A stretch of DNA of 64,000 nucleotides, from NCBI RefSeq assembly GCF_000373105.1, contig NZ_KB890426.1:62001-126000 (forward strand). Reading direction: 5' to 3'. Each line of letters begins with the position of its first letter. The stretch's first letter is position 1. Shown here one piece after another: positions 9,287 through 64,000 of the stretch. The notes under the pieces are model-generated. The model did no database searches, was not told where the DNA came from, and was given only the letters and a program-made list of their open reading frames with translations. Both the position numbers and the translations under genes were made by a program. The DNA is from Neolewinella persica DSM 23188. Lineage in GTDB: Bacteria; Bacteroidota; Bacteroidia; Chitinophagales; Saprospiraceae.

Positions 9287-9554
9287 TTCAGTAGCGTAGT
9301 GACCACGAAGTAGTCGAATTTAATTTGCCTCGGGTGTAAGGCCGTAAAACGGACTTTTCCCGGGGACCAATAGATGAGGCATCCATTGCGGCGCTCCGAG
9401 CCGCAAAATGCACCCGCCAACCTACCGCCCCGAGTTTGGCCGAACCGTTGCACTCGGAGTAAAACAAGTTCGATCCCTTCGGGATATTGTAGAAGAAGCT
9501 CTTTCCCAACAACTCAATTGGAAATATCACGTTCTACCTTTAATCCAATCCCGA

Positions 9555-10301
9555 ATGCAGATGCGTGTCATTTCTCCTCCTTTCCGTACTGTTCTCTTTT
9601 TTACCCTCCTCCTTTTAGCTCTTCCTCCCTTCCTCTCCGCCCAAAGCAGCGTAGAAGAGTTCAAACTAGGCGGCACCGCCCGCGTCCTGAACGACGAATG
9701 TATTCGGTTGACCCCCGACGTACAGTTCGCCAGCGGCTCGGCCTGGTACGAAAAGGCGATTGACCTCAGCCGTCCTTTCGAGATAACGGTCTGCCTGGTC
9801 TTTGGTAAAAACGATGAGCTGGGAGCCGACGGTATCGGCTTCATTTTTCACCCAACCATGCGGACGGGCTACCGGGGAGAGGGGATGGGCTTCGCCGGCC
9901 TTTATCCTTCTTTGGGGATCGAATTTGATACCTACCAGAATTATCACCTGGCGGATCCTGCATCCGATCATGTTGCCATCAACATCAACGGTCAGCCACA
10001 TCATTTCGCCAGTGTCGTTGGCCCGGAAGCTGTTCCCAACCTGGAGGACGGAAAGAAGCACCTGCTTTGGATCAACTGGGACCCGTTAGAGAAAAGGCTC
10101 ACCGTTCAACTCGATGGCGAAAACCGAGCCGTCCTCGAGGAGGACATTGTAAAGCAGGTCTTTAACGGAAATCCAACAGTTTTTTGGGGGGTGACCGCCG
10201 CGACCGGACGGAAGACGAACTTCCACGACATCTGCATCAAGAAACTGACCTTCGCAGAGGCGGTGGTGCAGCCTAAGGTGGATTTTGGCGGAAAGAAGTG
10301 A
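9555..10301 (+). CDS. Secreted L-type (legume-like) lectin-domain protein
   Basis: About 248 residues with a signal peptide (FRTVLFFTLLLLALPPFLSAQ) and one concanavalin-like fold. Diagnostic segments are GADGIGFIFHP, GIEFDTYQN with the metal-binding Asp/Asn pattern, HVAININGQ and HLLWINWDPLEKRLTVQLDG. ATG codons at 9555 and 9561 are both plausible starts; sequence upstream is repeat-like and lacks family resemblance. It lies 268 bp behind the PorV-like gene. Such proteins bind glycans, often as the recognition part of gliding or adhesion proteins; here the domain stands alone without an obvious C-terminal sorting signal. Confidence 0.82.
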   Translation: MQMRVISPPFRTVLFFTLLLLALPPFLSAQSSVEEFKLGGTARVLNDECIRLTPDVQFASGSAWYEKAIDLSRPFEITVCLVFGKNDELGADGIGFIFHPTMRTGYRGEGMGFAGLYPSLGIEFDTYQNYHLADPASDHVAININGQPHHFASVVGPEAVPNLEDGKKHLLWINWDPLEKRLTVQLDGENRAVLEEDIVKQVFNGNPTVFWGVTAATGRKTNFHDICIKKLTFAEAVVQPKVDFGGKK

Positions 10302-10441
10302 ATAATTGAATGAGTGAATAACTGCCGCAAGCACCGTTCGCTACCCTGCGGGAGCTCACCCGAGCGAGCAAGCGCAGCGCAGGGAGTGGAAACAGCGGCA
10401 GCCATTCAATTATCCCCCCATTCAATTATTCTCCCATTCCC
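10302..10441. repeat. REP-like palindromic island (ATTGAATGA type)
   Basis: The outer arms are GAATAATTGAATGAGTGAAT on the left and CATTCAATTATCCCCCCATT on the right. The inner core reads CTGCCGCAAGCACC, then GAGCAAGCGCAGCGCAGG, then CAGCGGCAGCC, itself imperfectly palindromic. It fills the gap between two convergent genes, where it could serve both as a terminator. Confidence 0.75.
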
Positions 10442-11041
10442 TCACACCTTAGTCCTGGAGACAATACTCCGCCCCAAAGTAACCTCGTCAGCATACTCGA
10501 GTTCTCCGCCAAAGGATACCCCGCGGGCAATGTTGCTGACCGTTACGTCAATTCCTTCTAGCTGACGATTGATGAAATATATGGTCGTGTCGCCCTCAAT
10601 GGTTGGGCTGATGGCCATGATGATCTCCTGGGTATCCCCATGTTTTGCCCGTTCCACCAGGGTGTCGATGTTGAGGTCTGCCGGGCCTACACCTTCGATT
10701 GGCGCAATGACGCCACCAAGAACGTGGTAAAGCCCACGGTACTGCTGGGTATCTTCGATGGCCATGACGTCTCGGATGGATTCAACGACACAAATCAGGG
10801 ATTGGTCTCGCCGGGCATCTCGGCAAATGGAGCAAATGTGCTGATCAGACAGGTTCCCACACTGCGTACAGTGCTGAATGTTCTCCCGCATCGAGGAAAT
10901 GGCCCGGGCAAAATGTACACTGTCTTCCGTCGGGCGCTGCACCAGGTGCAAGACCAGACGCAGAGCTGTTTTCTTTCCAATTCCAGGTAGGGAGGCGAAA
11001 GCGTTAACGGCTTCTTCGATTAGTTTGGAGGAGAATTGCAT
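10442..11041 (-). CDS. recR: Recombination mediator RecR
   Basis: RecR acts with RecO (and RecF) to load RecA on gapped DNA. The 199-residue protein has the helix-hairpin-helix LPGIGKKTALRL near residue 18, a zinc finger formed by CTQC and CSIC near residues 58-72, and a Toprim domain starting at CVVESIRDVMAIE and ending near GGELEYADEVTLG. Length and motif spacing match the family. Start ATG at 11041. A copy of the dispersed TTTGCACC element lies 73 bp upstream in the same orientation and could supply its promoter. Confidence 0.97.
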   Translation of the reverse strand: MQFSSKLIEEAVNAFASLPGIGKKTALRLVLHLVQRPTEDSVHFARAISSMRENIQHCTQCGNLSDQHICSICRDARRDQSLICVVESIRDVMAIEDTQQYRGLYHVLGGVIAPIEGVGPADLNIDTLVERAKHGDTQEIIMAISPTIEGDTTIYFINRQLEGIDVTVSNIARGVSFGGELEYADEVTLGRSIVSRTKV

Positions 11042-11114
11042 GGAGAGTCTCGTTATCGAGGTTTCGGGTTGTCTGGTTGCCCGGTAGGATTAAGAACGAT
11101 TGAACTTAGAAAAG

Positions 11115-11131
11115 GGCGCGGCCGCAGGTGC
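11115..11131 (-). repeat. Dispersed TTTGCACCTGCG-type element, copy 2
   Basis: On the minus strand CTTTGCACCTGCGGCCGCGC faces recR. It is identical over 22 bp to the copies near truB and at 24.3 kb. Confidence 0.8.
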
Positions 11132-11223
11132 AAAGAAAGGTAAAAGAGCAGTGTCCGTAGGGACAGACAAAGCGTAATTTTCAACCAAACCTCAAAATAA
11201 GCAACAATCCACCCCCCTTTCTG

Positions 11224-11255
11224 TTTGTTATACCCACATAAAAGTGGCAAATTTG
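11224..11255 (+). promoter_or_regulatory. Bacteroidota-type promoter of the E2 gene
   Basis: TTTG at 11224-11227 and CAAATTTG at 11248-11255 are separated by 20 bp, close to the TTTG-N19/20-TAnnTTTG consensus (first T replaced by C). The E2 start codon is 58 bp downstream. Confidence 0.55.
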
Positions 11256-11313
11256 CCCCTTCAATACAAACTAAGGATACTGCGGTAAACGCCGCCCACC
11301 CAAAAGATATATC

Positions 11314-12636
11314 ATGGCCGAGATTATTCGCATGCCGCGCATGAGCGACACAATGGAAGAAGGAAACATTGTTGACTGGTTGGTCGCCGAAGGCGACGAA
11401 GTAGAAGCCGGCCAAACCCTGGCCGAAGTGGAAACTGATAAAGCCACGATGGAACTCGATTCTTACTTCGATGGTGTCCTGCTGCACATTGCCGTGAAAA
11501 ACGGTGCAGTACCGATCGACGGGATCATCGCCGTAATCGGTGAGGAAGGCGAAGACTGGAAGGCCGCCATCGCCGCGGCCGGAGACGGTGCCAGTGCTCC
11601 GGCACCTGAAAAAGAAGAAGAAACTGCCGCTCCCGAAAAAGAAGAAACTGCTGCCCCGGCCGCTGCAGCTGCACCCGCGCCTGCCGCAACAGCTCCTGCT
11701 TCTACGGATTCCGATGAACGCGTAAAGGCAAGCCCCCTAGCCAAAGCGATGGCCAAAGAGGCCGGCATCGATGTTTCCACCCTTACCGGTACCGGCGAAG
11801 GCGGACGTATCGTCAAGGCCGACATTGAAAAAGCGAAGTCTGCCCCTGCTCCTGCTCCGGCAGCTGCCCCTGCACCTGCGTCCGCGCCTGCTGCTGCTCC
11901 CGCTGCCGCGCCTGCTCCACCTAATGTACCCGCTTTTGCTTTCGGAGCAAGCGGAGAGAATTATGTCGATACTCCCGTCAGCCAAATGCGTAAGGCGGTT
12001 TCTCGTCTGGTATCCAACTCTAAATTCACGGCCCCTCATTTCTACGTTACGGTCGAGATTGCAATGGATAAAATCTGGGAATTCCGTAAGCGGATCAATG
12101 AAGTAGCTCCGGTGAAGATCAGTTTCAACGACCTGGTCGTTAAAGCCTGCGCTGTGAACCTGCTGAAGCACCCGGTAATGAATTCCAGCTGGCAAGGTGA
12201 TTTCATCCGGGAGAACGGCGAAGTTCATATCTCCTGCGCTGTGGCCATTCCCGACGGATTGATGATGCCGGTGGTGCGTCACGCCAATATGAAATCGCTC
12301 AGTCAGATCAACCTCGACGTGAAAGATTTGGTCGGTAAGGCAATGGCCCGCAAACTTGGTAATGAGGAGATGACGGGAAGTACTTTCTCCATCTCTAACC
12401 TGGGAATGTTTGGCATTGAAGAATTTACCGCTATTCTCAACCCACCAAACGCTGCCATTCTGGCCGTTGGCGGTATCCAGGATAAAGCCGTTGTCCGCGA
12501 CGGACAAGTAGTCCCCGGAAAAGTGATGAAGGTTACCGTTAGCTGCGACCACCGCGTGGTCGATGGCGCTTCCGCCGCTGCCTTCCTCAACGACGTAAAG
12601 GCCTGCCTCGAAGATCCGATTCGTCTGATGGTCTGA
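11314..12636 (+). CDS. pdhC: Dihydrolipoamide acetyltransferase, E2 of pyruvate dehydrogenase complex
   Basis: This E2 subunit transfers acetyl groups from lipoate to CoA. Domain order: one lipoyl domain (residues 1-80, lipoylated Lys in VETDKATMEL), an Ala/Pro/Glu-rich linker, a peripheral subunit-binding domain (KASPLAKAMAKEAGID to GRIVKADIEKA, about 137-172), a second Ala/Pro linker, and the catalytic domain (about 215-440) with VSCDHRVVDGASAAAF carrying the His-Asp pair. Bacteroidota pyruvate E2s share this layout. E1 and E3 genes are not in the window. The second linker contains an exact in-frame copy of the dispersed element found between genes. A clean terminator follows the stop. Confidence 0.92.
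   Translation: MAEIIRMPRMSDTMEEGNIVDWLVAEGDEVEAGQTLAEVETDKATMELDSYFDGVLLHIAVKNGAVPIDGIIAVIGEEGEDWKAAIAAAGDGASAPAPEKEEETAAPEKEETAAPAAAAAPAPAATAPASTDSDERVKASPLAKAMAKEAGIDVSTLTGTGEGGRIVKADIEKAKSAPAPAPAAAPAPASAPAAAPAAAPAPPNVPAFAFGASGENYVDTPVSQMRKAVSRLVSNSKFTAPHFYVTVEIAMDKIWEFRKRINEVAPVKISFNDLVVKACAVNLLKHPVMNSSWQGDFIRENGEVHISCAVAIPDGLMMPVVRHANMKSLSQINLDVKDLVGKAMARKLGNEEMTGSTFSISNLGMFGIEEFTAILNPPNAAILAVGGIQDKAVVRDGQVVPGKVMKVTVSCDHRVVDGASAAAFLNDVKACLEDPIRLMV
11872..11888 (+). repeat. Dispersed element copy inside the E2 linker
   Basis: GCACCTGCGTCCGCGCC lies in frame, encoding A-P-A-S-A-P. Nineteen bases match the intergenic copy at 20830. Because Ala/Pro codons naturally resemble the motif, chance convergence cannot be excluded for this copy alone. 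Confidence 0.55.
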
Positions 12637-12661
12637 CCCATTTGAACGCTTGGATAAAGAA

Positions 12662-12697
12662 AAGCCGCGTTACTGCTCTATTGCAGTGACGCGGCTT
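12662..12697 (+). terminator. Intrinsic terminator after the E2 gene
   Basis: AAGCCGCGTTACTGC and GCAGTGACGCGGCTT form a 15-bp stem with a single T-G pairing and a six-base loop, followed by CTATTTTA. It lies 25 bp after the stop codon. Confidence 0.85.
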
Positions 12698-12833
12698 CTA
12701 TTTTACGGCGCTTTATCGCGCAGCGATTACACAATAGTTGCCCGGTACGTAGCGCCGGGCAAGGGAACGGGGGTGTTTGCGTTGATTGCCACGGGCAATC
12801 AGCGGCAGGATGAGCTCGTGATTCAGCTAAAGC

Positions 12834-14624
12834 CTATTCCCTTTCTACCAACACCACCCAATCCATCTCTACTTCCGACGGCGGGTTACTCAAATCAACC
12901 ATACCAGATTTAGACTTCCCGGCTTTTCCGGCAAACTGTCCGGTCCGTGGGTTGAACCAGCGAACGGAGTAGTCTCCTGTACCCACTTTAAGTTGGTTAG
13001 CAGTTTTTTCCCCCAGTTTCAGTAGTACCAGGTAGGTATCATTTTCCCTGGCCAGCACCCAATCCTGGTCTCCAGAGGTGAGTTCATTCGCTGGCTTCAT
13101 GCCAGGGAGGGGAACGTTCTCTGTAGCGACAAATTCCAGGAGGTAGCGGCACTGGTCCCAAAAGAGGTCCCGGCTCCGCCAGTCTTCACAGGTCAGGTCG
13201 GAGTGCGCGTGCTTGTAGCCGAAGTACCATTCGGTGCCCCAGGCACCGGCCATGAGACTGCCCCACAGCGCATTTTGACGAGCCATGTCATGTTTGGCAT
13301 CGTCCTCGTCGGGTAAAAGGCTGTGTTGTGCGTCTCCTGGTTCGTCTACTGCTACCGCCCACTGGTTGAACTGGTTTCCTGAGAGGTCCACCCAACGCCG
13401 GGTCGCGGGGTACACTTCCCGGAAATCCGGCTTACTGGTCTGCAGGGAGATGCCGGTGTATTTGCTGTCGGGGCCTAGTAAGTCGTAGTACTGCTGTCCG
13501 TTATGGATCACTACATGATGGCGGTAAGGATCGTTTTCGAAGAAATAACGAGCCATGTCGAGTCGCTGCTTTGTCGTTTGGTAGGGCTTCTTCCAGTTTT
13601 TACCCCATTTACCGTTCTCTTCTCCCATATTCCAGTTCAGGGCAAGGTGATGGCCGAAGCGGGCGATCAGTTCCCGATAATAGAGCTTACGCTGTATGCC
13701 CAGATCTCCGCCGTCCAGCAGCACCTGATTCTCTACCTCACCGGTCTTGAAGTGCAGAAACATGCCCATGTGGTCACCGTGTTCAAAGACAACTTCCCAT
13801 TGGTCCATTTTTGAAACGTCGATGCGTTCAAAGTTGTCGTAGATTACGTAAGGGAATACGTTTTGGTCGTCGCCGATGATGTTTAGGGTAAGGAAGCTGA
13901 AAGCATTGAGTCCCTCGCTGGCCAGATAGTTGATGGCACCAATCAGGGCTTTGCCTTTGCCATCTTTCCAGGTTGGGTCCCCGGCTTTCCAGTCTTTTAG
14001 GTGGGGCTCCCAGGTTTTAACCATGTTGTCTTTGTGGCCGTCCTGGTGGAACGTGCCATCGAAGTCGGCGTAGGAAAGTAGGTTTTCTGGTGCGTCGGTA
14101 CCGTTTTTGTAGAAGAATTCTCCGGTTTCGGCCCAGACCGGGTACTGCCGGTTGTGAAACAATAGCCGGCCTTTGCTTCTGAGGTCCCGGCCGGTTTTGT
14201 TACTGGCAGAAACCTGGAATTTGCCAGAAAGCCCATCCACCTTCGAAACAGCTTCTCCTTCCCGGGGGTTGTCGGCCAGCGCGACGTTAGCTCCCTCGCG
14301 AAAACTGATGCTGTAAGACCATTCGCCAGTGAAATCAGGAGAAAGGTGGGCCTTCCATTTGTTACCGCCAGTCGCACTGGTATTCCCTGCGTTTCCATCC
14401 GCAGCGTAGTATCCGGGGACTAAGTAGGAGACGGAGTCGTGACGGAAGGTTACGTCCATACGGTAATGAAGGAACGGATTGTGGTCGTGTTGTTCGTCCG
14501 TTTCAGGGCCATCGACGGTCACGGTGATTTTGTGCCATTTCTTTTGTTCTCCGCTAACGGCCACTTGAGCCGAAACAGAAAAAGAAATAAACAGAACCAA
14601 TAATATGGAGAGAATATGGTGCAT
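12834..14624 (-). CDS. Secreted DUF5060-containing glycoside-hydrolase-like protein
   Basis: 596 residues with a signal peptide (LSILLVLFISFSVSAQ). An N-terminal DUF5060 beta-sandwich covers roughly residues 28-130 (KWHKITVTVDGPE, FTGEWSYSISF). A TIM-barrel-like middle includes VWAETGEFFYKNGTDAPEN, FSFLTLNIIGDDQN, LNWNMGEENG (a plausible catalytic Glu) and WAVAVDEPGDA. A small C-terminal putative collagen-binding-type sandwich has YSVRWFNPRTGQF. The architecture is known from many Bacteroidota secreted glycosidases with poorly defined substrates. The gene converges on the E2 gene and is divergent from the DUF1080 gene, another sugar-active protein. The specific substrate is unknown. Confidence 0.82.
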   Translation of the reverse strand: MHHILSILLVLFISFSVSAQVAVSGEQKKWHKITVTVDGPETDEQHDHNPFLHYRMDVTFRHDSVSYLVPGYYAADGNAGNTSATGGNKWKAHLSPDFTGEWSYSISFREGANVALADNPREGEAVSKVDGLSGKFQVSASNKTGRDLRSKGRLLFHNRQYPVWAETGEFFYKNGTDAPENLLSYADFDGTFHQDGHKDNMVKTWEPHLKDWKAGDPTWKDGKGKALIGAINYLASEGLNAFSFLTLNIIGDDQNVFPYVIYDNFERIDVSKMDQWEVVFEHGDHMGMFLHFKTGEVENQVLLDGGDLGIQRKLYYRELIARFGHHLALNWNMGEENGKWGKNWKKPYQTTKQRLDMARYFFENDPYRHHVVIHNGQQYYDLLGPDSKYTGISLQTSKPDFREVYPATRRWVDLSGNQFNQWAVAVDEPGDAQHSLLPDEDDAKHDMARQNALWGSLMAGAWGTEWYFGYKHAHSDLTCEDWRSRDLFWDQCRYLLEFVATENVPLPGMKPANELTSGDQDWVLARENDTYLVLLKLGEKTANQLKVGTGDYSVRWFNPRTGQFAGKAGKSKSGMVDLSNPPSEVEMDWVVLVERE

Positions 14625-14769
14625 AATAACGGTTTGTAGAATGGGTGATTTTCAAAAAGCAAGATAAATGCTTCCGCTTGGTTAACCGTCGGGTACTGTC
14701 GGTTATAACCATAAGGGGTATTGTTTGGGAGAATAAGCTGCTTATATTTAGCCCCAAACCAATCACATC

Positions 14770-15507
14770 ATGCTAAAGCAAATCTTTACCGCCCTGTTGT
14801 TACTGTGCACAGTGGTCGTTTCTGCCCAAATCACCGATCCTAAAGCCACCGAATTTTACGAACCGGTACCACCTAAGGTCAAAGCGGATCCGGTTGCCGT
14901 ACCACCTCCTTCCGATGCGATTGTCCTGCTGGGCAAAGGCGCAGATACCAAAGAGTGGGTCAGCGTAAATGGGGGCGGTGCAGTTACCTGGACTAAGGAA
15001 GGCGACGCTCTGGTCGTAAATCCCGGATCTGGAGGAATCCAGACCCGCCGTAACTTCGGGGACGTTCAGCTGCACGTAGAATGGCGCAGCCCCAATGAGC
15101 CCGACAAGGAAGGGCAGGGGCGTGGCAACAGTGGCGTGTTTTTCTCCGGCCGCTACGAAGTCCAGGTGCTGGAAAGTAACGGCAGCGATACTTACACGAA
15201 CGGTCAGGCTGCTTCCATCTACAAGGAGTCTCCACCGCTGGTCAACGCTACTTCCGTGATGGGAGACTGGAACAGCTACGACATCATTTTCTCCGCCCCG
15301 GTCTTTGATAAGAACGGCATGGTCGTTCGCCCAGCCTACGTGACGGTACTTCATAACGGCGTACTGGTGCAAAACCACTGGGAAATCAAAGGCACGACCG
15401 CCTACATCGGTCTGCATAAGTACACCGCCCACGAGAATGGCAGCATCATGTTGCAGGACCACTCTAATAAGGTAGCTTACCGGAATATTTGGGTGCGGGA
15501 ATTGTAG
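14770..15507 (+). CDS. DUF1080 (3-keto-disaccharide hydrolase-like) secreted protein
   Basis: 245 residues with a signal peptide ending in VVVSAQ. The single concanavalin-like domain shows the DUF1080 hallmarks: VLLGKGADTKEWVSVNGG, GGIQTRRNFGDVQLHVEWRSP, GRGNSGVFFSGRYEVQVLES and MGDWNSYDIIFSAPVF. DUF1080 proteins include enzymes that cleave 3-keto-glucosides and many unproven members. A TATATTTA box about 20 bp before the ATG may be its promoter. It is followed directly by a minisatellite. Confidence 0.85.
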   Translation: MLKQIFTALLLLCTVVVSAQITDPKATEFYEPVPPKVKADPVAVPPPSDAIVLLGKGADTKEWVSVNGGGAVTWTKEGDALVVNPGSGGIQTRRNFGDVQLHVEWRSPNEPDKEGQGRGNSGVFFSGRYEVQVLESNGSDTYTNGQAASIYKESPPLVNATSVMGDWNSYDIIFSAPVFDKNGMVVRPAYVTVLHNGVLVQNHWEIKGTTAYIGLHKYTAHENGSIMLQDHSNKVAYRNIWVREL

Positions 15508-15785
15508 GGTCGCTACGCTCTGGTTGCAGGAGCGCTACGCTCTGGTTGCAGGGGTTGCAAGGTCGCTACGCTCTGGTTGCAGGGGTTGCAAGGTCGCTAC
15601 GCTCTGGTTGCAGGGGTTGCAGGGTCGCTACGCTCTGGTTGCAGGGGTTGCAGGGTCGCTACGCTCTGGTTGCAGGGGTTGCAGGGGCGCTACGCTCTGG
15701 TTGCAGGGGTTGCAGGGTCGCTTCGCTCTGGTTGCAGGGGTTGCAGGGTCGCTACGCTCACGTTGCAGGAGTTGCAGGGGTGCTC
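15508..15785 (+). repeat. 31-bp minisatellite, about nine units
   Basis: The unit begins GGTCGCTACGCTCTGG and ends TTGCAGGGGTTGCA. Repeat registers at 15564, 15595, 15626, 15657, 15688, 15719 and 15750 are exactly 31 bp apart; the first unit is shorter (22 bp). Since 31 is not a multiple of three and the unit has no stop in any of these frames, long spurious reading frames run through it; none is believed to be a gene. Variation between units is only one or two bases. Confidence 0.95.
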
Positions 15786-15832
15786 CGGAGGAGGGGACTT
15801 GCAACCTGCAACTCCTGCAACGTGAGCGAAGC
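15757..15832. repeat. Inverted repeat closing the minisatellite
   Basis: The last unit (CTCACGTTGCAGGAGTTGCA) is matched about 25 bp later by its reverse complement TGCAACTCCTGCAACGTGAG, giving a long hairpin at the array end, just before the stop of the convergent lipoprotein gene. Confidence 0.85.
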
Positions 15833-15854
15833 GCCCCCCTGCAACCTCTTCTCG

Positions 15855-16295
15855 CTACCGCCGCTCCCGCCAATCCGTGAGTTCAACCGTAGCATAAACC
15901 TTGCCACCAGCCAGGTCCCGCTCTACCGAAACAAAGCGACCGGTAGCATAGCCGTACATGCCCGTTTCCAGCTGGTTCATGAGCTTGGGAGAAGTGGACT
16001 CAGAGCTGACGGTATATTTGATCCCCGAAAGGTCCCCAAAGGTGTATTCTACCGTGGGTTCTCCACCCAGGTAGGCCATTTTACTGTAGGCACCAATGTG
16101 AAATTGCCAGTCTTTTATCTCTTGTCCGATTTCAATAACGGGCTCAATACCGCCATGGTCAGCCATTCGCTTAAATGCCATCTCAGCAGCTACTTGTTCC
16201 GGTGGAATGGTGGCTTCATCAAAGTTATTTCCGGCGCAGGCTGATAAAAGGAAAAAAATAAGAAGGGGGAAAAGGAGTTTAGGAAGGCGTGGCAT
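15855..16295 (-). CDS. Uncharacterised lipoprotein
   Basis: 146 residues starting with a lipoprotein signal (LLFPLLIFFLLSAC, lipobox LSAC). The mature protein is acidic to neutral with beta-strand-like segments (WQFHIGAYSKMAYLGGEP, KVYATVELTDWRERR). I recognise no family. It stands alone between a minisatellite and a divergent methyltransferase gene. The lipoprotein assignment is well supported; function is unknown. Confidence 0.75.
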   Translation of the reverse strand: MPRLPKLLFPLLIFFLLSACAGNNFDEATIPPEQVAAEMAFKRMADHGGIEPVIEIGQEIKDWQFHIGAYSKMAYLGGEPTVEYTFGDLSGIKYTVSSESTSPKLMNQLETGMYGYATGRFVSVERDLAGGKVYATVELTDWRERR

Positions 16296-16410
16296 CTGCG
16301 TTGATTTTATCTCAAGGTAAGGTGTTTACCAATCAGCCTTCCCCTTTTTAGCCTCCCTTTTTCCCTACTTCGTTGCACCCCCTCCTTTCCTCCCTTTATT
16401 CTTTCCGCCT

Positions 16411-16418
16411 TACTTTCG
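16411..16418 (+). promoter_or_regulatory. -7 box immediately before the methyltransferase start
   Basis: TACTTTCG differs from TAnnTTTG at one key base and ends five bases before the ATG at 16424, implying an almost leaderless mRNA. Confidence 0.5.
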
Positions 16419-16423
16419 CGCTT

Positions 16424-17080
16424 ATGGCCAAATACACGATTCGTTGGCGGGTTGCTCAGTACCTGGAACGCCGTTGGTGGCGCCGCTACCTGAAGGGTAA
16501 GTCGCCGGAAGACTACCTGGCCGATAAGCGATCCTATTGGGCTAAAACCCTTGATCAACTCGACTGGGAACCAGTCGCTGGTCGCCGGGTGCTCGATGCC
16601 GGATGTGGCCCTGCGGGCGTATTTATTTTGGTGCATGAACTTGAAAAGGTGACCGCGCTCGACCCTCTGCTCCATAGTTACGAAAAGGACCTGAGCGTTT
16701 TCAAACAGGTCGATTATCCGGGCGTACAATTTTGGCAGCAACCACTAGAAAGGGGTTTGCCAGAAGAAGAAACTTTTGATGCCATCTACTGCTTCAATGC
16801 GATCAATCATGTCGATGATTGGGGCAAAGCGTTGGATGCCCTCACCGCCCATGCCCATCCGGGAACCCGGATGGTGCTCACCAGTGATGTCCATCGCCAC
16901 CAGTTTTTATTGCCCATTTTTCGGGCATTGCCAGGGGATGCCCTGCATCCTCAGCAGCACGGGCCGGAGGCTTATCGTGCCGCACTCAAGGCCCGGGGGT
17001 GGCGGGTCGAGTGGGAAGAAGTATTGCGGCGGGAGGCCATTTTTGATTACACTGCCTGGGTGGCGGTACTGGAAGACTAG
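16424..17080 (+). CDS. Class I SAM-dependent methyltransferase
   Basis: About 218 residues. Motif I is RRVLDAGCGPAGVF around residues 52-65, the acidic motif II end is EKVTALDPLL, and motif IV is FDAIYCFNAINHVDDW. The basic N-terminus (WRVAQYLERRWWRRYLKGK) could contact a membrane or nucleic acid. The start chosen is the ATG at 16424, just behind a promoter-like TACTTTCG; an earlier in-frame codon at 16373 would precede that box. Substrate unknown; neighbours give no clue. Confidence 0.82.
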   Translation: MAKYTIRWRVAQYLERRWWRRYLKGKSPEDYLADKRSYWAKTLDQLDWEPVAGRRVLDAGCGPAGVFILVHELEKVTALDPLLHSYEKDLSVFKQVDYPGVQFWQQPLERGLPEEETFDAIYCFNAINHVDDWGKALDALTAHAHPGTRMVLTSDVHRHQFLLPIFRALPGDALHPQQHGPEAYRAALKARGWRVEWEEVLRREAIFDYTAWVAVLED

Positions 17081-17151
17081 GTAGCGTGAGCTAAAACGGG
17101 GAAGGGCTTCTGAACGCTGATATGAGTTTCCTGCTTCTTGTTCCTAATAAG

Positions 17152-17170
17152 ACGGGGCCGCAGGAGCAAG
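17152..17170 (-). repeat. Dispersed element, degenerate copy
   Basis: ACGGGGCCGCAGGAGCAAG matches the minus-strand consensus GGCGCGGCCGCAGGTGCAAA at about 15 of 19 positions. No gene starts immediately downstream on the minus strand. Confidence 0.5.
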
Positions 17171-17317
17171 GTGTTGGGATATGAAAGCAGGGGAGGGGCG
17201 TCCGTCGACTCCAAAGTGTTTGTGGTGACTAAGCTGGGTACACGTCAGCTGCTGCGCGAAATCCTCTCCGACGATGAAAGACGGTTGGTCCGGTTTTTTT
17301 TGCAAAATAGAATAATT

Positions 17318-17341
17318 AAAAGTTAGACTAGTCTAACTTTT
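17318..17341. promoter_or_regulatory. Perfect 24-bp palindrome, probable operator of the TonB receptor
   Basis: The centre reads GTTAGACTAGTCTAAC and pairing extends through flanking A4 and T4, so the whole 24 bp is self-complementary. It lies 14 bp upstream of a TATATTTG box, where a bound repressor would block RNA polymerase. The TTAG/CTAA spacing resembles operators of the DtxR/IdeR/MntR metalloregulators (inference). Confidence 0.75.
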
Positions 17342-17355
17342 GTTGTCGAGTGTGC

Positions 17356-17363
17356 TATATTTG
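17356..17363 (+). promoter_or_regulatory. -7 promoter box of the TonB receptor gene
   Basis: TATATTTG is an exact TAnnTTTG match, 83 bp before the preferred start. A convincing -33 TTTG at consensus spacing is not seen; the palindrome occupies that place. Confidence 0.6.
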
Positions 17364-17382
17364 CTCCTCCAGACAAGTCACT

Positions 17383-17399
17383 GCTCCTGCGTCCGCGCC
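17383..17399 (+). repeat. Dispersed element copy in the TonB receptor leader
   Basis: GCTCCTGCGTCCGCGCC differs from the plus-strand consensus by one base and lies between the TATATTTG box and the start codon, thus in the 5' leader. Confidence 0.7.
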
Positions 17400-54858: not shown

Positions 54859-55783
54859 TGCAACAGTGCATAAGGCTGGTATGGGGTCAACGTGGCATTT
54901 TCAGCTCCTTTTTCAAGGCTTTTTTCTACGTTTACGGCTAATAATTTACTTTAGCGTACTACCTTATTCAGACTTTATTAGTGTTTGGACTTCTAGTGAT
55001 ATTTACGGTATAAAAGGCAATAAATCTGATTTTTTTTTAAAAAAAATGTTTTATTGCCCGTTTTAAAAAATACGCAAAGTATATTTACTTAGATTTTCGA
55101 GGTTCCCTGCCTCTAGTTAGATAGTGAACAACCTAAACGCAAACAGTTATGAACACACTTTACTTATTCACACAGTCAGGCTTTTTTCGAGCTCCAACTT
55201 GGCCTCATTCCTAGGTGCATTCCTAGGGTGCCTCCTATTTGTTGCCCTTAGCTTATAAGGGTAAATGTTTGGATGAAGTATTCTTAAATCCAGTGGTATG
55301 GATTGCTTTTCAATTTTACATCCCTAATATTCAGTCCTGTAGACTGAATTTCTGTTCTGAGCTTTTAATGGTACTATCGATATTACTTCCATTCATTAGA
55401 ATGGATGGAATGATCGTGTAGTTGTCAGCTCTGAAGAACATATTGAATGTAATAGAAACATTCCTAATCATTACGACGACGAGGGTAATTCCACCAGCGG
55501 CTTCAACCCTTAGGTTACCGGATCAGCAGTAGCTTTTTCAGCTGCAACCTGGTGACCTGTATCCCTTCGGAGATGGTTGTGCCAAGTGGTAACCAGCAGT
55601 TAGACATTAATTCCGGAGGCGTCGCCCGTCTGCCCAATAGCAAGAATTCTTTTCATTTTCTACCTGTTTTTCATTCGGGTAAAATGGAAGGTTGCTTAAT
55701 AATTGGTTTTCAGCGCTCGTAGTTAGTGCTGGAGATTAGCCTCCTATTCGTTTTTTTTTAGACTTTGAACAACACAATAATAA
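54859..55783. other. AT-rich gap between ftsK and the giant gene
   Basis: Apart from the pseudogene this 925-bp gap contains no intact gene. It is visibly richer in A and T than the rest of the window (A/T tracts at 55028-55075). No clear terminator directly follows ftsK. Confidence 0.6.
55149..55650 (+). pseudogene. Decayed duplicate of the N-terminus of the following giant gene
   Basis: Starting at an ATG (55149), several stretches translate to sequence like the next gene but are broken by stops and frameshifts. About 55380-55520 reads IDITSIH-stop-NGWNDRVVV and NIPNHYDDEGNSTSGFNP-stop-VTG, matching VDIYTIQRNGVDDYVVI and TIPNHNDDGSAAGASRQATG of the giant protein (residues 91-140). In-frame stops are TAG at 55397 and 55511. 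Further on DINSGGVARL matches DTNSGMITRL. Its upstream AT-rich leader (54940-55145) resembles a functional 5' region. Confidence 0.8.
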
Positions 55784-58700
55784 TGAACTCATTTTTGCCC
55801 TGGAACCAGGCCGCTCGCACGGTCCTGTTGTCCCGTAATATTTCCCGGTTAATAACCCTGGTACTTTTTTGCCTGTCCTTATGTTTCGGGCTTAATGACT
55901 TGCACGGGCAGGTTTTCAGTACCAGTGACCTCGACTTCAACGGTAACAACGGAGTGAGCAGTGCTACTTCGCTGATGTTCGGCCCGGACGATCGCCTGTA
56001 CGTATTGAGCCGCCTTGGTGAGGTAGACATCTACACAATCCAGCGAAATGGGGTGGACGATTACGTAGTGATCGGGTCTGAAAACATCTCCTCGGTCAGT
56101 ACCATTCCCAATCACAATGACGATGGTAGTGCGGCAGGTGCCAGCCGTCAGGCTACTGGTCTGACCGTAGCCGGTACTGACACCAATCCGGTGATTTACG
56201 TAACCTCCAGTGATTCGCGGATCGGGGGTCCCAGCGGAGATCAGGGCCTGGACACTAATTCCGGGATGATCACCCGCCTGAGTTGGAACGGTAGTTCCTG
56301 GGATGCGGTGGATATCGTACGGGGATTGTCACGCTCGGAAGAGAACCACGCTACTAACGGCCTGGAGTTTGCCACCGTGAATGGGGAAGACTACCTTATT
56401 GTTTGTTCTGGTGGGCACGCTAATTCCGGTGGCCCTTCCGATAACTTTGCCTGGACGACGGAATACGCCCTCTCTGCGGCCGTGCTTTCTATCAACCTCA
56501 CACAAATAGAGGCTTTGCCGATCCTGACTGACAATTCCTCCGGCCGGAAATATATCTATGATATTCCAACTTTAGATGATCCCACCAGAGCCAACGTCAA
56601 TGGTATTATTGATCCGGACGTTGCTGGCTATGATGGCATTGACCTTAACGATCCCTTTGGTGGCAACGACGGCCTCAACCAGGCCATGATCGTCCCGGGC
56701 GGACCGGTGCAGATCTTTTCTTCGGGCTACCGGAATACCTATGACCTGGTACTGACCCAAAATGGTCGGGTATACGTCACCGATAACGGTGCCAACGGCG
56801 GCTGGGGCGGTTTGCCGGAAAATGAAGGGACCGATGGTACCGTCACTAACAACTACAACATTGATGGCAATGGGAATGAGATCGGTAGTACCGGTCAGCA
56901 TCCGACCGCTGACGGCGAATCGGTTAATAATGCCGACCATCTGCACCTCGCCACGATTAACCGGGTTAACAGCACGACCAACGGTGGTTTTGGCAATGCG
57001 GTATCTATCGATAACTATAATTTTGGAGACTTTTACGGTGGTCACCCTACTCCGATTCGGGCCAACCCGGCGGGAGCGGGTTTATTTACCAATCCCGAAG
57101 TCAACAATTATAATCCGGCTACTGCCGTATTCCGGACACTGATTTACGACCCCAGTAATCCTGGTCCAGGCTTTACGGATGACCCGAATATTGCTTTACC
57201 TGCCAACTGGCCGCCGGTGCCGGTAAGTATGGCCAACCCGATCGAGGGAGACTGGCGAGGCCCCGGCATCAACAATCCGGACGGGCAAAACGATTTGCTC
57301 GTCACTACCTGGGGTACCAACACCAACGGTATCGACGAATACACTGCCTCTAACTTCGGCGGTGCCATGCAGGGTGACCTCATCGCGGGAAAGAACGGCG
57401 GTGTCTTACGTCGCGTACAATTAAACGCCGACGGCAGCCTGGATCAGCTGACCAGTACCTGGCAGTCCAACCTGGGGGGTAATTGCCTTGGCATTACCTG
57501 TAATGGTGATTCGGACCCCTTCCCGGGAACGATCTGGGTGGCTCCGTTCAACAGCTCAATTAAAGTGTTGGAGCCAAATGACCTGGTCATTATTGATTGC
57601 ATCCTTCCCGGTGATGTCGGCTATTCGGACACTGCAGATAATGATTCCGACGGCTATACCAACGAAGACGAAATCCAAAGTAAACAACTAACCGAGTCAG
57701 GATTACCCGAGACCGACGAAGAGGTGATTTGTAATCCGGGTAACCAACCCAACGATTTTGACAAGGCGCTAGGAGGAACACTAGTTTCTGACCTCAATGA
57801 TCCGGACGATGACGGAGACGGTATCCCGGATACCAATGATCCCTTTCAATTCGGGGTCCTCGGCAGCAGCGATGATGCGTTTGACCTGCCTGTCTTCAAT
57901 GAACTATTCTCTGATAATCCGGAGCTTCTTGGCTATTTGGGACTGGGCTTCACGGGGATGATGAATAACGGTGACGCAGGGCCGAACTGGACCAACTGGC
58001 TGGACCGTCGCTTCGACCCCACCGACGCCAATACCAACGATATTCTTGGCGGTGCCGTTGGTGCCATGACCATGCAGATGACGTCTGGCACGGCGTTAGG
58101 CACGGCCAATAACCAGGATAAAGCTTTTCAGTATGGCGTCAAGGTAGACCAGAGTATTGGCTCCTTTACCGTATCCGGTCGGATGCTGAATTTTACATCA
58201 GACTTACAACTGTACGATAGTCAGTCCCCAACCGGCGGAGAAATAGGCTTTTTCATTGGCGACGGCACACAAAGTAACTACCTCAAATTCGTGCTTACGC
58301 AAAACGGGCTTGTAGCCCGACAGGAGATCAATGACGTTCCCCAGGTACCGGTAACGCTCAACCTGGCCGCCGGCGCTCGCCCTAACAGCAACATCGAACT
58401 TCTCTTTAGCGTGAATGCCGTCACGGGAGTTGTTACCCTACAGTACAGAAAAGATGGTGGTATTCTGGAGACCCTGGGCACCATTGCCGCTCAGGGCGCC
58501 GTATTAACGGCCATTCAGACGAGTGCGCCATTGGCGGTAGGTCTGATTGGTTCCTCTAACACCTCTGGCGATGAAATAGAGGGTACCTGGGACTACCTGA
58601 ATGTGGAAAGTACCCTGCCTTTCGTAGAAGCACAGCTTCCGGATGTGGAAGCGCTGATTAATGATCCGGATCAAGACATCAACCTGGATGATTACTTTGG

Positions 58701-61700
58701 TGATGACGCAGGTGACGGAAACCTGACTTACACCGTCGAAAGTAACACCAACGGCGCTATCGGTGCAGTCATCAGCGGCAATACCCTGACCCTGTCCTTC
58801 CCCGCAACGGAAGAAACGGGCACTATCGCCGTACGAGCTACTGACAACAGCAGCCAGTTTGTTGAGCAGACCTTTACCGTCAACGTGAATGATGAACCGG
58901 TGCCCGTCCTACGCATCAGGGCCAACGGAGCTACTATTGCTGCAACCGATGCGCCAAATCCCGATTGGATTGGACTGACCGGCGCCGGTGCTAAATCCGG
59001 TTCTTTTAATGGCCTCACTTATAATCTGAATGTCAGCTCGGTTTCCGCGCAGAGTTCCACGGGGCGGGATGCTTCCTTGCCCGCTTACGTGCCGCAAGAT
59101 ATTTTCGTGGGTGAACGATACGATATAGATGAGGCCCCCGAAATGGAATGGACCTTTGGGCTGCCTAACGGTAATTATCTGGTTCGGGTATACATGGCTA
59201 ACGGCTTTAACGGTACCAACCAAGTCGGGGACCGAGTATTTGACATTTTCCTTGAAGGGCAACTGGTGGAAGACAACCTGGATTTGGTGGATACTTACGG
59301 TCACAAGACCGGAGGTATGAAAGAATATGCGGTAACCCTTGTTGATGGAACCCTCAATCTCTCGTTTGGACACGTTGTTGAAAATCCAGTGTTTAACGGT
59401 ATTGAAATTCTGGCCGCTGGCGGGCAGGTCATACCACCGATTGTCGTGTCTATTCCTGATCAAACCAACGTGGCAGGAGACCAGGCTATTACTCTGGCTG
59501 TGATACCTTCTGGTGGAGATCCTAATGCAAACTTTGGGTTTACTGCTCAGAACCTGCCTCCGGGTTTACAAATCGAGCCAACGACGGGACTGATCTTTGG
59601 GGATATTACTGCTGGTGCTGCTGTTGGTAGTCCGTACAGCTCTGTCGTTACGGTTTCTAAAACAGGAAGTACCGATGCCGTCGCCAACTTCACCTGGACG
59701 GTCACTGCACCGGTTGGTAATGTCACGTGGAACGACCAGACCGATGTTGAAAATTACACTGCCCGTCACGAATGTTCGTTCGTGCAGGCTGGCGATAATT
59801 TCTACTTGTTTGGCGGTCGGGAAAACCCGACTACGCTGGATGTTTACGATTATCAAAATAAAGCCTGGAGTCAAATATCCAACTCTGCTCCTGCGTCATT
59901 TAATCATTTCCAGGCCGTCGAGTACCAGGGATTGATCTGGGTCATTGGTGCTTTCAAAGATAATGGGTTCCCAAATGAAACTCCAGCCGATTTCATTTGG
60001 TCCTATAATCCAGCCACCGATGAATGGGTACAGGGACCGGAGATTCCGGCTTCCCGTAAACGAGGATCAGCTGGCCTGGTAGTTTACAATGATAAATTTT
60101 ACGTCATCGCTGGTAATACCATTGGACATAACGGTGGTTATATTCCCTGGTTCGATGAGTTCGATCCTGCCACTGGCATTTGGACGCCATTGGCAGATGC
60201 ACCACGCGCCCGTGATCATTTTCACGCCGCGGTGGTTGGAGATAAATTATACGTTGCCGGTGGCCGGGAGTCTGGCCCTGTTAACGGAGGCAGTGTATTT
60301 GAGCCCTTGATTCCAGAGGTAGATGTGTTCGATTTTAATACTGGTAGCTGGTTGTCGCCAAGCTCGGCAGCTGATTTACCAACACCACGCGCCGCCGCCT
60401 CGGTAGCGGTATTTCAGGATGAATTATACGTGATCGGAGGTGAGATTGGAATGGATCTGCAGGGTAACATCATCGATGATGCCGTTACCGCTACCGAATC
60501 CTACAACCCCAATACTGATACCTGGACGACTCAAGCGCCTTTACTTACCGAACGCCACGGCACGCAGGCCATTGTTTCTGGTAACGGTATTCACGTAGCA
60601 GCGGGCTCCAACACCAAAGGTGGTGGTGGGAAGATGAAAAATATGGAGTTTTATGGTACGGATAACCCCTCCGGTACGCCGCTGACGGCAAGCCAACTCC
60701 AGACACCTGCCAGCGTAGAGATCAACGCGAACAGTACTTCCATTATTACAGCAGCCTCTGCAGGAGGCAATACCGGAATTATCATTACTAACGCAGTGAT
60801 TACCGGCCAGGATGCAGCCATGTTCTCCCTGGATACGCCCATTGATTTTGCTTTGGTCTCCCCAGGTGCCAGTTTGGACCTCACGGTAGGATTTAATGGT
60901 ACTGAAGGCGGTAAAACAGCTACTTTGGTAATAGACTATGGCGAGGCCAGTACTGCGAGTATTACCTTGAACAGTGCTGTTCTAGTTCCCGGGACTGTCC
61001 TGTATCGGGTAAATGCAGGTGGACCACTTACTGCCACCAATGACGTCGATCCCACGGACTGGTCAGTAGATCAGGCTACCACCGGTAGCGGGACTGCTAA
61101 TGGAACGGCTGCTAACGGTACGCCTTCTCAGTACATTGATTTGACCGCTCCGGCGGCAGATCTCACCTACGGCCCGCCCGCTAATACCACGCTGACCAAT
61201 ACCACCGGCTACCCGGATGCCTTGTTCCTGACGGAGCGTTACAGCACCGTAGCTAACCCAAACAATATGAACTGGGCCTTCCCGGTGGACAATGGTGATT
61301 ATACTGTCAACCTCCTACTGGCTGAATCCTTCTTCACGGCCAATGATGCACGGATCTTTGACGTAGAAATTGAAGGTGCGTTGGTACTGGATGATCTGGA
61401 TCTTTTCGCCTCCTACGGTAACAACGTAGCCGCTGTAGAAACTTTCTCGGTCACGGTAACTGATGGCGTGTTAGACATTAATTTCCTCAAAGGAAGCGTC
61501 AACAACCCAGCCATTAAAGGGATCGAGATCCTGGGTGGTGGCAGCCCACCGGTTAACACCGCTCCGGTTGTCGACGTAGTCCCGAATCAATTTAACTTCG
61601 AAGAGGATAATATCTCACTTCAGGTTACGGCCAGCGATATCGATCCCTGTACGGGACTGACTTATACCGCTACCGGCCTGCCGCCTAGCTTGACTATCGA

Positions 61701-64000
61701 TACGAATACCGGATTGATTTCGGGAACCCTTGATGCCGGCTCGGGTAGCGGTACTGCTGGTGCATTTATTGAAAGTGGTGGGATTGTTGTGATTGAAATG
61801 GAGTCAGTTGAGACCCTACCTGGTTCCTGGGAGGATGCGTCCACTTACAGTACGACCTTCTCTCCGAACGTCAATAATCCGGCCGGGGCTACCGGCGGCG
61901 ATTTCCTCATCTGGCAGGGGGGGCAATCTCTCGGAAACCCAGGTAATGGCTTGTTGACTTATCCGGTAGAAATTACGACACCAGGAGTATATAAATTCCA
62001 GTGGCGAAATCAAGTGGGTAACGGAACGAATACTACCGAACACAATGACACCTGGCTAAAAATTGAAGCAGATGCTTTTTACGGACAGCAAGGCGGCGGT
62101 AGTATTGTTTGTCCCAAGGGCTTGAATGCAGCCGAAAATGATTGTTCCGGAGGTGCGCCCGAAGGCGCCGGAGCGGCAGGTTGGTTCAAGGTATACTCCA
62201 GTGGAGCTAACAACTGGAGTTGGGTTTCGAATACGAGCGATAATGACGCTCATCAGATCTATGCCAGATTTGATGCACCCGGTGTCTATAACATCTTGGT
62301 ATCGGCGCGGTCTTCCTCCCATGCCATTGACCGGATGGTCTTGGCGAAGACTGATTACAGCGGCAATCCGCAAAGCCTTTCCTTGCCAGAATCGGCACGC
62401 AGCACAGGAGGCGTTGCTGGCGCTGCAGACGGCAGCCCTTACAACGTAACCGTAAGTGTTAGTGACGGCTGTGTACCTCCACTGAGCACGGACGTGAATT
62501 TCGTCTGGACGGTCTCAGAAAATCTGGGTAGTAATCCGGAGGCGACCGTAAAGGTGAATTCGGGAGGAGGACTAGGTTCCTCCACCTTTGGTAATAATTC
62601 TTTCCAGATCGAGAATACCGGTGACGTTGATATCGTCAACGTGACCATCAATACGGCTACTGGCTTTATGATGGACGTAGTCTTCGATCCGGTCGGCACC
62701 GCAGGTGATAATGCGGCCAAATGTTTGACCGAAGGCACTGCTTCCGTGGGTGACGTGGGTATCACTGTACCAGCCGACGGCGGCCCGGATGCTGCTGATT
62801 GTGAAAGCGTATTCGCTCAACCGCATAACGGTGTGGATAACGACGAAGGTTACGACGAACTCACCCTTGATTTTACTGATTTCAATCCGGGCGAACTCTT
62901 CGCCTTTGGAGTTGATATGGATCCTACCACCATCAAGGGAGATCTAACCGCCGGTAACGCAGGTTCCATTTCCGGTTTTGAAATGATCGGGTCTACCGTT
63001 ACGATTCAATTTGCCAACGGCGCCGTGCTGACTACCAGCTTGTTCGACGAAGGCAGTGCCGGTGGATCTGATGCTGTTGTCAATCAAACGGCTAACGATC
63101 TCAATCCGCCAGGTATCAATGTTGGCGGTTCGATTGTCAACCAGTTGGTCAGCGATGCCAGTCAAACCATCAATATTGTTGGTGGCCCCTCAAACGGTAC
63201 CGTGACTTTATTGCAGGTAGATGGCCGGCTATACATAGATCCGGGTAATCCGACTATCGGCTACGATATTGATCCTTTCGAGGCCAATGAAGCCATGACT
63301 AAAGTTTTATACTCGGATGTATTGAATGCTTCCGGTGACGTAAGCATACCGGTAACCCTGCTGCAAACTGCGGGTGGTAACAATACTCCGGATGGTGGGT
63401 TGAATCACTTCATCGCGGTAGTTACCAGCCCGGGGGGAGAGAACAGTGTGGCTTCTAATGTGATCGTGCTGGAATATGACCCGAATGCCACGGTAGATGC
63501 TTCTTTGGATATTTCTTATACTCTACAAGGGCGTAATAATAACCCGGGCATCGATCTCACCGTAGAATTTTGGGAAGCGGGAGAACTGAATCCTACGTAT
63601 ACTTTTACGCCAACTGGAACGGGTACTTCGACTGGTTTAGCTACGGTGACGGGAATGGTGCCGGGCGATTACGAAGTGGCGGTGAGAGCCCCCACATACT
63701 TACAGGCCGTAGAATCTGTCACTTTGCTCGAAGGGAATAACACCTTGGATGTTGGTCAATTAAGAGGGGGAGATGCAAATGGCAATAATGCAGTATCAGC
63801 ACTTGACTTTTCAATACTGGCTGGCACCTTCAATCTTGCGGAAGGGAGTCCAGGATATAACGGTCTGGCCGATTTCAACGGCGACGGTCAGGTAACTGCA
63901 TTAGACTTTTCTATCCTGGCTTCTAACTTTAATGTCGCTGGGGAGCAGGTTTCCAATTTAGCGAACAAAGGCGAGGTAGAGACGCGTGATCGTAAAGCTC
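55784..64000 (+). CDS. Giant secreted multidomain protein, malectin/Kelch/dockerin-like (partial, open at window edge)
   Basis: A single frame of 2,739 codons without a stop from ATG 55784 to the window end. Signal peptide ends near residue 43 (LHGQ). Then: a beta-propeller-like region (about 50-600); Asp-rich calcium-type repeats (610-690; DNDSDGYTNED, DPDDDGDGIPD); a concanavalin-like sandwich (690-945); malectin 1 (about 1040-1216); putative Ig (He_PIG, 1220-1310; GLIFGDITAG); Kelch repeats (1313-1626; YLFGGRENPTT, DKFYVIAGN, LYVIGGE); an ASPM-like sandwich; malectin 2 (1740-1919); a second He_PIG interrupted by a carbohydrate-binding-like insert (1990-2206); further sandwiches; and two dockerin-like calcium loops at 2661-2710 (DANGNNAVSALD, DFNGDGQVTALD). 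Probably exported to the surface by the type IX system; the C-terminal signal is outside the window. Confidence 0.85.

Follow-up and report, generated by a model that had tools for sequence, protein, structure and literature searches.

The 64,000-nucleotide stretch of Neolewinella persica DSM 23188 analysed here (the window; contig NZ_KB890426.1, C14:62001-126000 of the organism's own assembly, G000) ends inside the gene of a giant protein belonging to a conserved family of very large secreted proteins that we name A. Near the window end and past it, the chain runs from a dockerin through a linker of ~26 residues into a cohesin and then a C-terminal sorting domain (CTD) of the type IX secretion system (T9SS). 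We propose that the dockerin-cohesin joint holds the giant A proteins on T9SS-anchored carriers, usually in trans and in the window protein in cis, a reading that we consider probable.

The open reading frame (ORF) starts with TTG at 55765 and ends at window-equivalent position 64692 (L009:10693) on the + strand, on which all features of the protein lie, giving 2975 amino acids (aa) from the TTG; ATG at 55783 is the likelier start. Protein A, supported by the ORF and by identity to homologues, occupies 55783-64000 and continues to 64692. The dockerin (63763-63948; Pfam match at residues 2669-2722) carries the calcium loops DANGNNAVSALD and DFNGDGQVTALD, each followed by a helix-like stretch (FSILA..FN). 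It scores 43.7 bits against a cut-off of 22.9, the strongest of 27 PF00404 matches in its own genome (E up to 10), and gives a 55-residue alignment (E 4e-7) with the solved dockerin 2y3n_B; helices at 19-28 and 52-60 appear in the AlphaFold model of the Portibacter homologue, not of the window copy. With its two loops and helices the domain belongs to PF00404. The preliminary description, made from the letters of the window alone, had seen a dockerin-like pair of calcium loops and would have dropped it had the helical F-hand pattern been lacking, and the dockerin proves to be genuine.

A search with ten window-type dockerins returned 45 related loci, and the 64 distinct dockerins counted below are those passing E 1e-9 with the hidden Markov model (HMM) of the window type, weaker types (L162-L180) being excluded. 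After parsing (61) and removal of near-copies (36), the agreement between the two segments within one dockerin at loop positions 9-11 was 0.546, compared to 0.195 between proteins, and none of 20000 permutations reached as high a value; gene conversion could be an alternative source of this symmetry. Dockerins as such are widespread, with nine in the own genome at E 0.001 and a match in 94 of 100 genomes of the family, and the window type is uncommon (29/298 family genomes at E 0.001, 5/395 genomes of the phylum at 1e-9).

Behind the dockerin, the start of the linker fills the rest of the window (63949-64000) as the dockerin-cohesin spacer. The cohesin follows at window-equivalent 64024-64416 (L009:10025-10417), where it was located by the genome search and is found clearly by a clade HMM, and the type A CTD at 64459-64686 (L009:10460-10687), recognised by Pfam (PF18962, residues 2899-2974, 40.1 bits against 27) and NCBIfam (TIGR04183, 41.1 against 23). 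A type IX sorting signal beyond 64000, which the preliminary description had proposed to look for, is thus present, and as the genome also encodes the T9SS core protein SprA (SprA_N, E 7.5e-137), the window protein has the marks of a type A substrate of this system. The clade HMMs for cohesin and dockerin were built independently of the models cfam and dfam, which are slightly weakened by one cohesin seed in the wrong frame (L035) and four empty dockerin seeds.

Cohesins had been thought rare in the phylum, and this is not supported. The suggested search of the own genome returned 18 matches at E 0.001, 14 of them over the cut-off (16 matches in larger searches), and a cohesin was matched in 93 of 100 family genomes and in 69 of 198 genomes drawn from the phylum, besides the one in the same chain. 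Several ORFs of the own genome carry arrays: ORF3 on contig C52 has 4 cohesins in 2757 aa, and an ORF on contig C2 has 10 in 2811 aa and ends in a type B-like CTD, as detected by an HMM made from the tails of the own genome. The latter ORF (L010, G000:C2:235000-254500, 8964-17396, minus strand) lies beside a gene for a 281-aa cohesin-CTD protein, and a small cohesin-CTD gene near a multi-cohesin ORF is likewise seen in L029 and L031. At L013 (9423-17693) the near-identical repeats of the four-cohesin ORF contain ambiguous residues (X), the assembly being unsure or masked there.

Dockerin-ending chains and their neighbours

Most of the 64 dockerins (42) end their chain, with 17 residues or fewer after them; 19 stand directly before a cohesin, followed in 5 of these by a CTD, one precedes a CTD only and two are arranged otherwise. 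A gene with an HMM match counted as a neighbour if it had the same strand and either lay no more than 600 nt away or overlapped slightly. Among the 25 chain-ending dockerins of Bacteroidota (24 from the set of 64 and that of Muriicola A), 24 lie beside a cohesin gene: 15 of the main count, six from Flavobacteriaceae, that of Muriicola A, and L158 and L160, where the next gene encodes 2244 aa with a CTD and with cohesins that begin only at residue ~1030. The cohesin is near the partner's N-terminus in 22 of the 24 pairs, and the only one of the 25 dockerins beside no cohesin gene is L123, the second dockerin of Muriicola. Seen from the side of A, 13 of 15 proteins that carry the nested module described below end at the dockerin and lack a sorting domain, all 13 beside a cohesin gene, and the other two, those of the window and of Portibacter, continue with a cohesin and a CTD.

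The simplest arrangement is found in eight Flavobacteriaceae genomes (Robiginitalea SC105, five Arenibacter, Muriicola Z0-33 and one titled uncultured Flavobacteriaceae), each of which holds exactly one cohesin at E 0.001 by the A2 profile. In all eight the A gene is immediately preceded, on its own strand, by a frame of 1421-3209 aa with a CTD at its end, and the lone cohesin begins 65-94 residues from the start of this frame. The A proteins of these genomes (2860-3203 aa) include the nested module, and only 3-5 residues follow their dockerin. PF00404 reports one dockerin over the cut-off in six of the genomes and two in Muriicola; G300 gave no PF00404 match at E 0.01, and its dockerin (L110) was found by the A1 search.

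Longer series occur closer to the window genome. N. aquimaris, N. xylanilytica and Lewinella IMCC34191 have a trio consisting of A with the nested module and a dockerin end, B with an N-terminal cohesin and a dockerin end, and C with one or two N-terminal cohesins and a CTD; Lewinella JB7 has the same trio with C in two frames, the CTD being separate. On C52 of the own genome, a dockerin-cohesin-CTD ORF precedes ORF2 (dockerin end), ORF3 (its four cohesins and a dockerin end) and ORF4 (two cohesins and a CTD). G014 has an A ending in a dockerin, then a 3842-aa protein running from a cohesin to a CTD, and in Portibacter both A and B are of the dockerin-cohesin-CTD form. The A gene of G014 is open in two frames (L098 3136-4698 and 4702-10029) with a stop between them, which may reflect a frameshift, an assembly error or a pseudogene. 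In the window genome, the next gene after A has relatives in B of N. aquimaris and in the third Portibacter gene.

An assembly frameshift between dockerin and cohesin, which would turn one chain into two, is rejected: many genomes share the stop immediately behind the dockerin, and by eye the following gene begins with a signal-like N-terminus of its own. The frames of ORF2 and ORF3 on C52 overlap by 41 nt, and ORF3 has its own start and a hydrophobic N-terminus.

Outside Bacteroidota, dockerin-ending genes stand beside cohesin genes at L121, L129, L131 and L108, from Anaerolineaceae metagenome-assembled genomes (MAGs) and entries with Pleurocapsa titles. Six non-Bacteroidota cohesin-gene products were scanned, and LysM was found in two (L121, L129) and a Pfam cohesin match in four; the sequences suggest that the LysM-bearing products could represent the dockerin-cohesin scheme with another anchor. 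At L162, L163, L169, L173, L174 and L180, a weaker dockerin-like type ends the ORF, and the gene after it encodes ~350-450 aa with a possibly cohesin-like N-terminus (GSSNL.F.F, by eye) and a T9SS CTD; here the trans scheme may be realised with different modules.

Proposed coupling in trans and in cis, and its rivals

We suggest that the dockerin of A would be the coupling module, binding its cohesin presumably in a calcium-dependent manner. In most relatives it would plug into the N-terminal cohesin of the secreted product of the neighbouring gene, which in the Flavobacteriaceae and in G014 carries the T9SS CTD itself. In four Neolewinella/Lewinella genomes the partner has a dockerin at its end, which would lead on to the cohesin(s) of a third, CTD-bearing protein, and the series A:Doc-Coh:B:Doc-Coh:C-CTD (Doc, dockerin; Coh, cohesin) would make up an arm that is held together non-covalently and fixed to the surface. 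As cohesin and CTD follow the dockerin in one chain, the joint is possible in cis, and in the window genome and Portibacter it would be made in this way, with A carrying its own export and anchor signal.

Structure prediction is consistent with such a joint. The AlphaFold model of the dockerin-cohesin part of Portibacter A (221 residues, aligned with 17 natural tandems) has a predicted local distance difference test (pLDDT) score of 79.8, falling under 50 in the linker (72-92), and a predicted template modelling score (pTM) of 0.76. By a simple calculation, a dockerin placed with an error of 1.5-2.5 Å relative to the cohesin corresponds to a pTM of 0.72-0.81 and an error of 15-25 Å to one of 0.48-0.56, so that dockerin and cohesin appear to be packed with firm placement in the model, as judged from pTM rather than from predicted aligned errors or coordinates. 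The cohesin of this homologue, not the window copy, has the cohesin fold in the predicted model, with solved cohesins leading the VIA matches (6kgf_C, Z 15.1, root mean square deviation (rmsd) 2.2, 130 aligned); we draw no kinship from the lower Foldseek rows, which are other beta-sandwiches.

Several observations weigh against coupling as we propose it. The window cohesin scores 22.2 bits in the PF00963 genome search (E 6e-4), below the cut-off of 24.1, and does not appear when the entire chain is run through hmmscan at E 0.1; likewise, the Pfam cohesin model matched in only two of six Flavobacteriaceae genomes tried, one over the cut-off, and hmmscan of the whole Robiginitalea partner protein does not report the cohesin. 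In the gene behind the window A no cohesin was seen, the contig ending inside this gene. The own genome holds many cohesins that may be the partner of the window dockerin. Outside Bacteroidota a cohesin neighbour was in view for only 6 of 18 chain-ending dockerins, several Chloroflexota loci ending at contig edges, and in one such neighbour (L126) the cohesin is not N-terminal. The packing of the Portibacter model may reflect recall of known complexes by AlphaFold. Finally, the cis cohesins group apart from the N-terminal cohesins of neighbouring genes (9 label changes compared to 14.7 when shuffled, none of 500 shuffles being as low, in a tree to which near-copies contribute and in which many forks are unresolved and several branches long), and the cis form may be doing something else. 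This separate grouping argues against a simple recent fusion, so that a recent joining of A to the cohesin-CTD part of its partner is rejected as the simple account of the cis form.

The abundance of cohesins gives some room to a cellulosome-like network, in which the window dockerin would bind other cohesins of the genome (e.g. those of C52 ORF3 or ORF4) and the cis cohesin would take up other dockerins, resulting in a branched or daisy-chain assembly at the surface. The 18 cohesin matches and nine dockerins at E 0.001, the multi-cohesin ORFs on C52 (4) and C2 (10) and the full cohesin fold of the Portibacter cis cohesin in the model speak for such a network. We nevertheless regard it as unlikely, since a firm placement of dockerin on cohesin is predicted for the Portibacter tandem, genomes with a single cohesin have it in the neighbouring gene, and no glycoside hydrolase is matched by Pfam in A, with the reservation that its N-terminal ~1000 residues match no family. 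It is still more improbable that the tandem is a structural module only, a calcium-stabilised stalk before the sorting domain that couples nothing: the short distance between dockerin and cohesin (in each of 17 measured tandems, 31-50 residues from one HMM end to the other), the divergence of the cis cohesins, which have long branches, and the 29 family dockerin loci, where a cohesin follows the dockerin in 14 and then a CTD in 13 of the 14, would suit a stalk, yet it leaves the chain-ending dockerins beside cohesin genes unexplained and the dockerin symmetry is maintained.

If A is coupled to a T9SS-anchored carrier, the way in which a CTD-less A leaves the cell comes into question. It is conceivable, and we put it forward only tentatively as a rather doubtful idea, that a CTD-less A with its signal-peptide-like N-terminus rides the T9SS translocon via its dockerin on the cohesin-CTD carrier encoded next to it; the pairing would then be a transferable export signal and the window gene a case with the carrier built in. 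Our literature search gave no account on point of such piggyback T9SS export among the matches listed. In T9SS work a CTD-less fluorescent reporter is used as control (PMC10994853), which sharpens the question of how the CTD-less A proteins are exported. The alternatives to carrier-bound export are other routes or docking after release; by analogy, vesicles may be one such route, as they are suggested in the relevant part of a report on a CTD-less enzyme that another Bacteroidetes has outside the cell (PMC6247017).

The nested He_PIG domain and the rest of protein A

Malectin, Kelch and dockerin domains were correctly recognised in one chain by the preliminary description, all of them being over the Pfam cut-off, and so were two He_PIG domains, for each of which Pfam reports a stretch. 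Pfam matches nothing in the first ~1000 residues. They are followed by a malectin-type domain (59086-59412; Malectin_like stretch 1108-1216), an uninterrupted He_PIG domain with ends placed by motif (59443-59706; matched at full length in the N. aquimaris homologue), a Kelch beta-propeller (59761-60603), whose similarity to the NCBIfam cyclically permuted mutarotase is far below the cut-off, and a second malectin domain (60997-61524; residues 1745-1920). A surface assembly with carbohydrate-binding-type modules, which would bind glycans, is plausible from this domain content.

The second He_PIG domain is split. Its Pfam match (1934-1996) covers positions 2-71 of the 96 of the profile and then stops; ~215 residues (2001-2214) intervene, and GVAGAADGSPYNVTVSVSDG...FVWTV (2216-2250) supplies the missing end. 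In the DNA, the N-terminal half lies at 61564-61752, the inserted beta-sandwich module at 61765-62406, and the C-terminal half, assigned by motif, alignment and model, at 62410-62514. The insert was matched in 25 of 199 family genomes, and in four of the 30 insert loci of a family search it stands between two He_PIG halves; most of the others follow a signal-like N-terminus or have different surroundings, and some are fragments. The nested order was present in all 12 insert-bearing chains among the loci from the dockerin query and also in Muriicola A, so that with the window and G014 the arrangement is kept in 15 genomes, two of the four family loci being genomes already named (G006, N. aquimaris; G170, Portibacter lacus).

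An AlphaFold model of the split region (A3, built on a 13-row alignment) is of modest quality (mean pLDDT 59.9, pTM 0.49). In VIA-align, cadherin domains span ~4-329 of this model with only ~90-100 residues aligned (best Z 8.9), which in the model would mean that both He_PIG halves complete one fold, and C-terminal domains of GH115 alpha-glucuronidases cover ~70-290 (7pxq, Z 10.2, rmsd 3.1, 138 aligned). Rows for CBM6 at Z ~7.5 are at the level where VIA-align warns of common arrangements, and from rows under Z 8 we draw no kinship. The insert therefore resembles the GH115 C-terminal domain in fold, and differs from it in having no match in Pfam or in the PDB sequence search and in being nested in a cadherin-like domain. 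The nested insertion had been proposed from the letters alone, together with an HMM and structure prediction as its check, and it stands: the profile breaks at 71 of 96, the order recurs, and the model, of modest confidence as it is, favours two halves of one domain around an independent unit. Tandem rather than nested domains are rejected on the family loci, the named loci and VIA-align on the model. In the 13-row alignment the insert falls into two subfamilies, which in different A proteins occupy one and the same site, a pattern reminiscent of an exchange of the module.

The kin of the window genome here are N. aquimaris (same genus; Lewinellaceae), whose homologue is 67% identical to the window protein over 2241 columns, and Portibacter lacus. 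The homologue of Robiginitalea, from the Flavobacteriaceae (L182:10625-19273), matches it at 64% over 1320 columns and, in another stretch of 1457, at 49%. So close a likeness between giant secreted proteins of different classes suggests that the A locus was transferred horizontally.

Relation to known cohesin-dockerin systems

Cohesin-dockerin systems, including non-cellulosomal members, are already known, and the cellulosome of clostridia and ruminococci, with its scaffoldins, combines symmetric dockerins and cohesins with multi-cohesin and anchoring proteins. All of these elements are shared by the system of A, whereas its anchor is a T9SS sorting domain, its genes come as pairs of one dockerin and one cohesin, and its cargo is a giant binding-type protein in which no glycoside hydrolase is recognised. 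The non-cellulosomal cohesins of Clostridium perfringens (PDB 2vo8, 2jh2, 2w1n) likewise have the cohesin fold in large secreted glycan-active proteins, but in another architecture and with no T9SS.

A further likeness is to Candidatus Stygibacter (Cloacimonadota), for which the relevant part of the report describes dockerin proteins and a scaffoldin-like protein that carries several cohesins in tandem as well as a CTD (PMC8542988); there the enzymes are inferred to dock on one scaffoldin, in contrast to the dockerin-cohesin-CTD chain and the adjacent gene pairs and trios of the A system. The same modules are noted in a Posidonia seagrass metagenome, where most cohesin- and dockerin-related proteins were assigned to Bacteroidetes, including one MAG near Maribacter (PMC8547425); the portion of that report used here gives them as counts of carbohydrate-active enzymes (CAZymes) together with SLH domains, reads them as cellulosome parts, and does not deal with T9SS, gene pairing or the dockerin-cohesin tandem. 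We found no account of dockerin-cohesin-CTD chains or of adjacent dockerin/cohesin-CTD pairs in Bacteroidota in the literature searched, subscription papers being outside its scope.

One Bacteroidetes genome paper reports that cohesins and dockerins are absent, in keeping, as it states, with other genomes of the phylum (PMC5831590); in contrast, both are common here in a whole family. The eight Flavobacteriaceae genomes contain a minimal adjacent dockerin/cohesin pair with the T9SS signal on the cohesin side only. As several of these genomes are of named strains, they offer simple two-gene systems in which one can ask whether the pairing works outside a cellulosome, and which also bear on how a protein that lacks a CTD leaves a bacterium with a T9SS.

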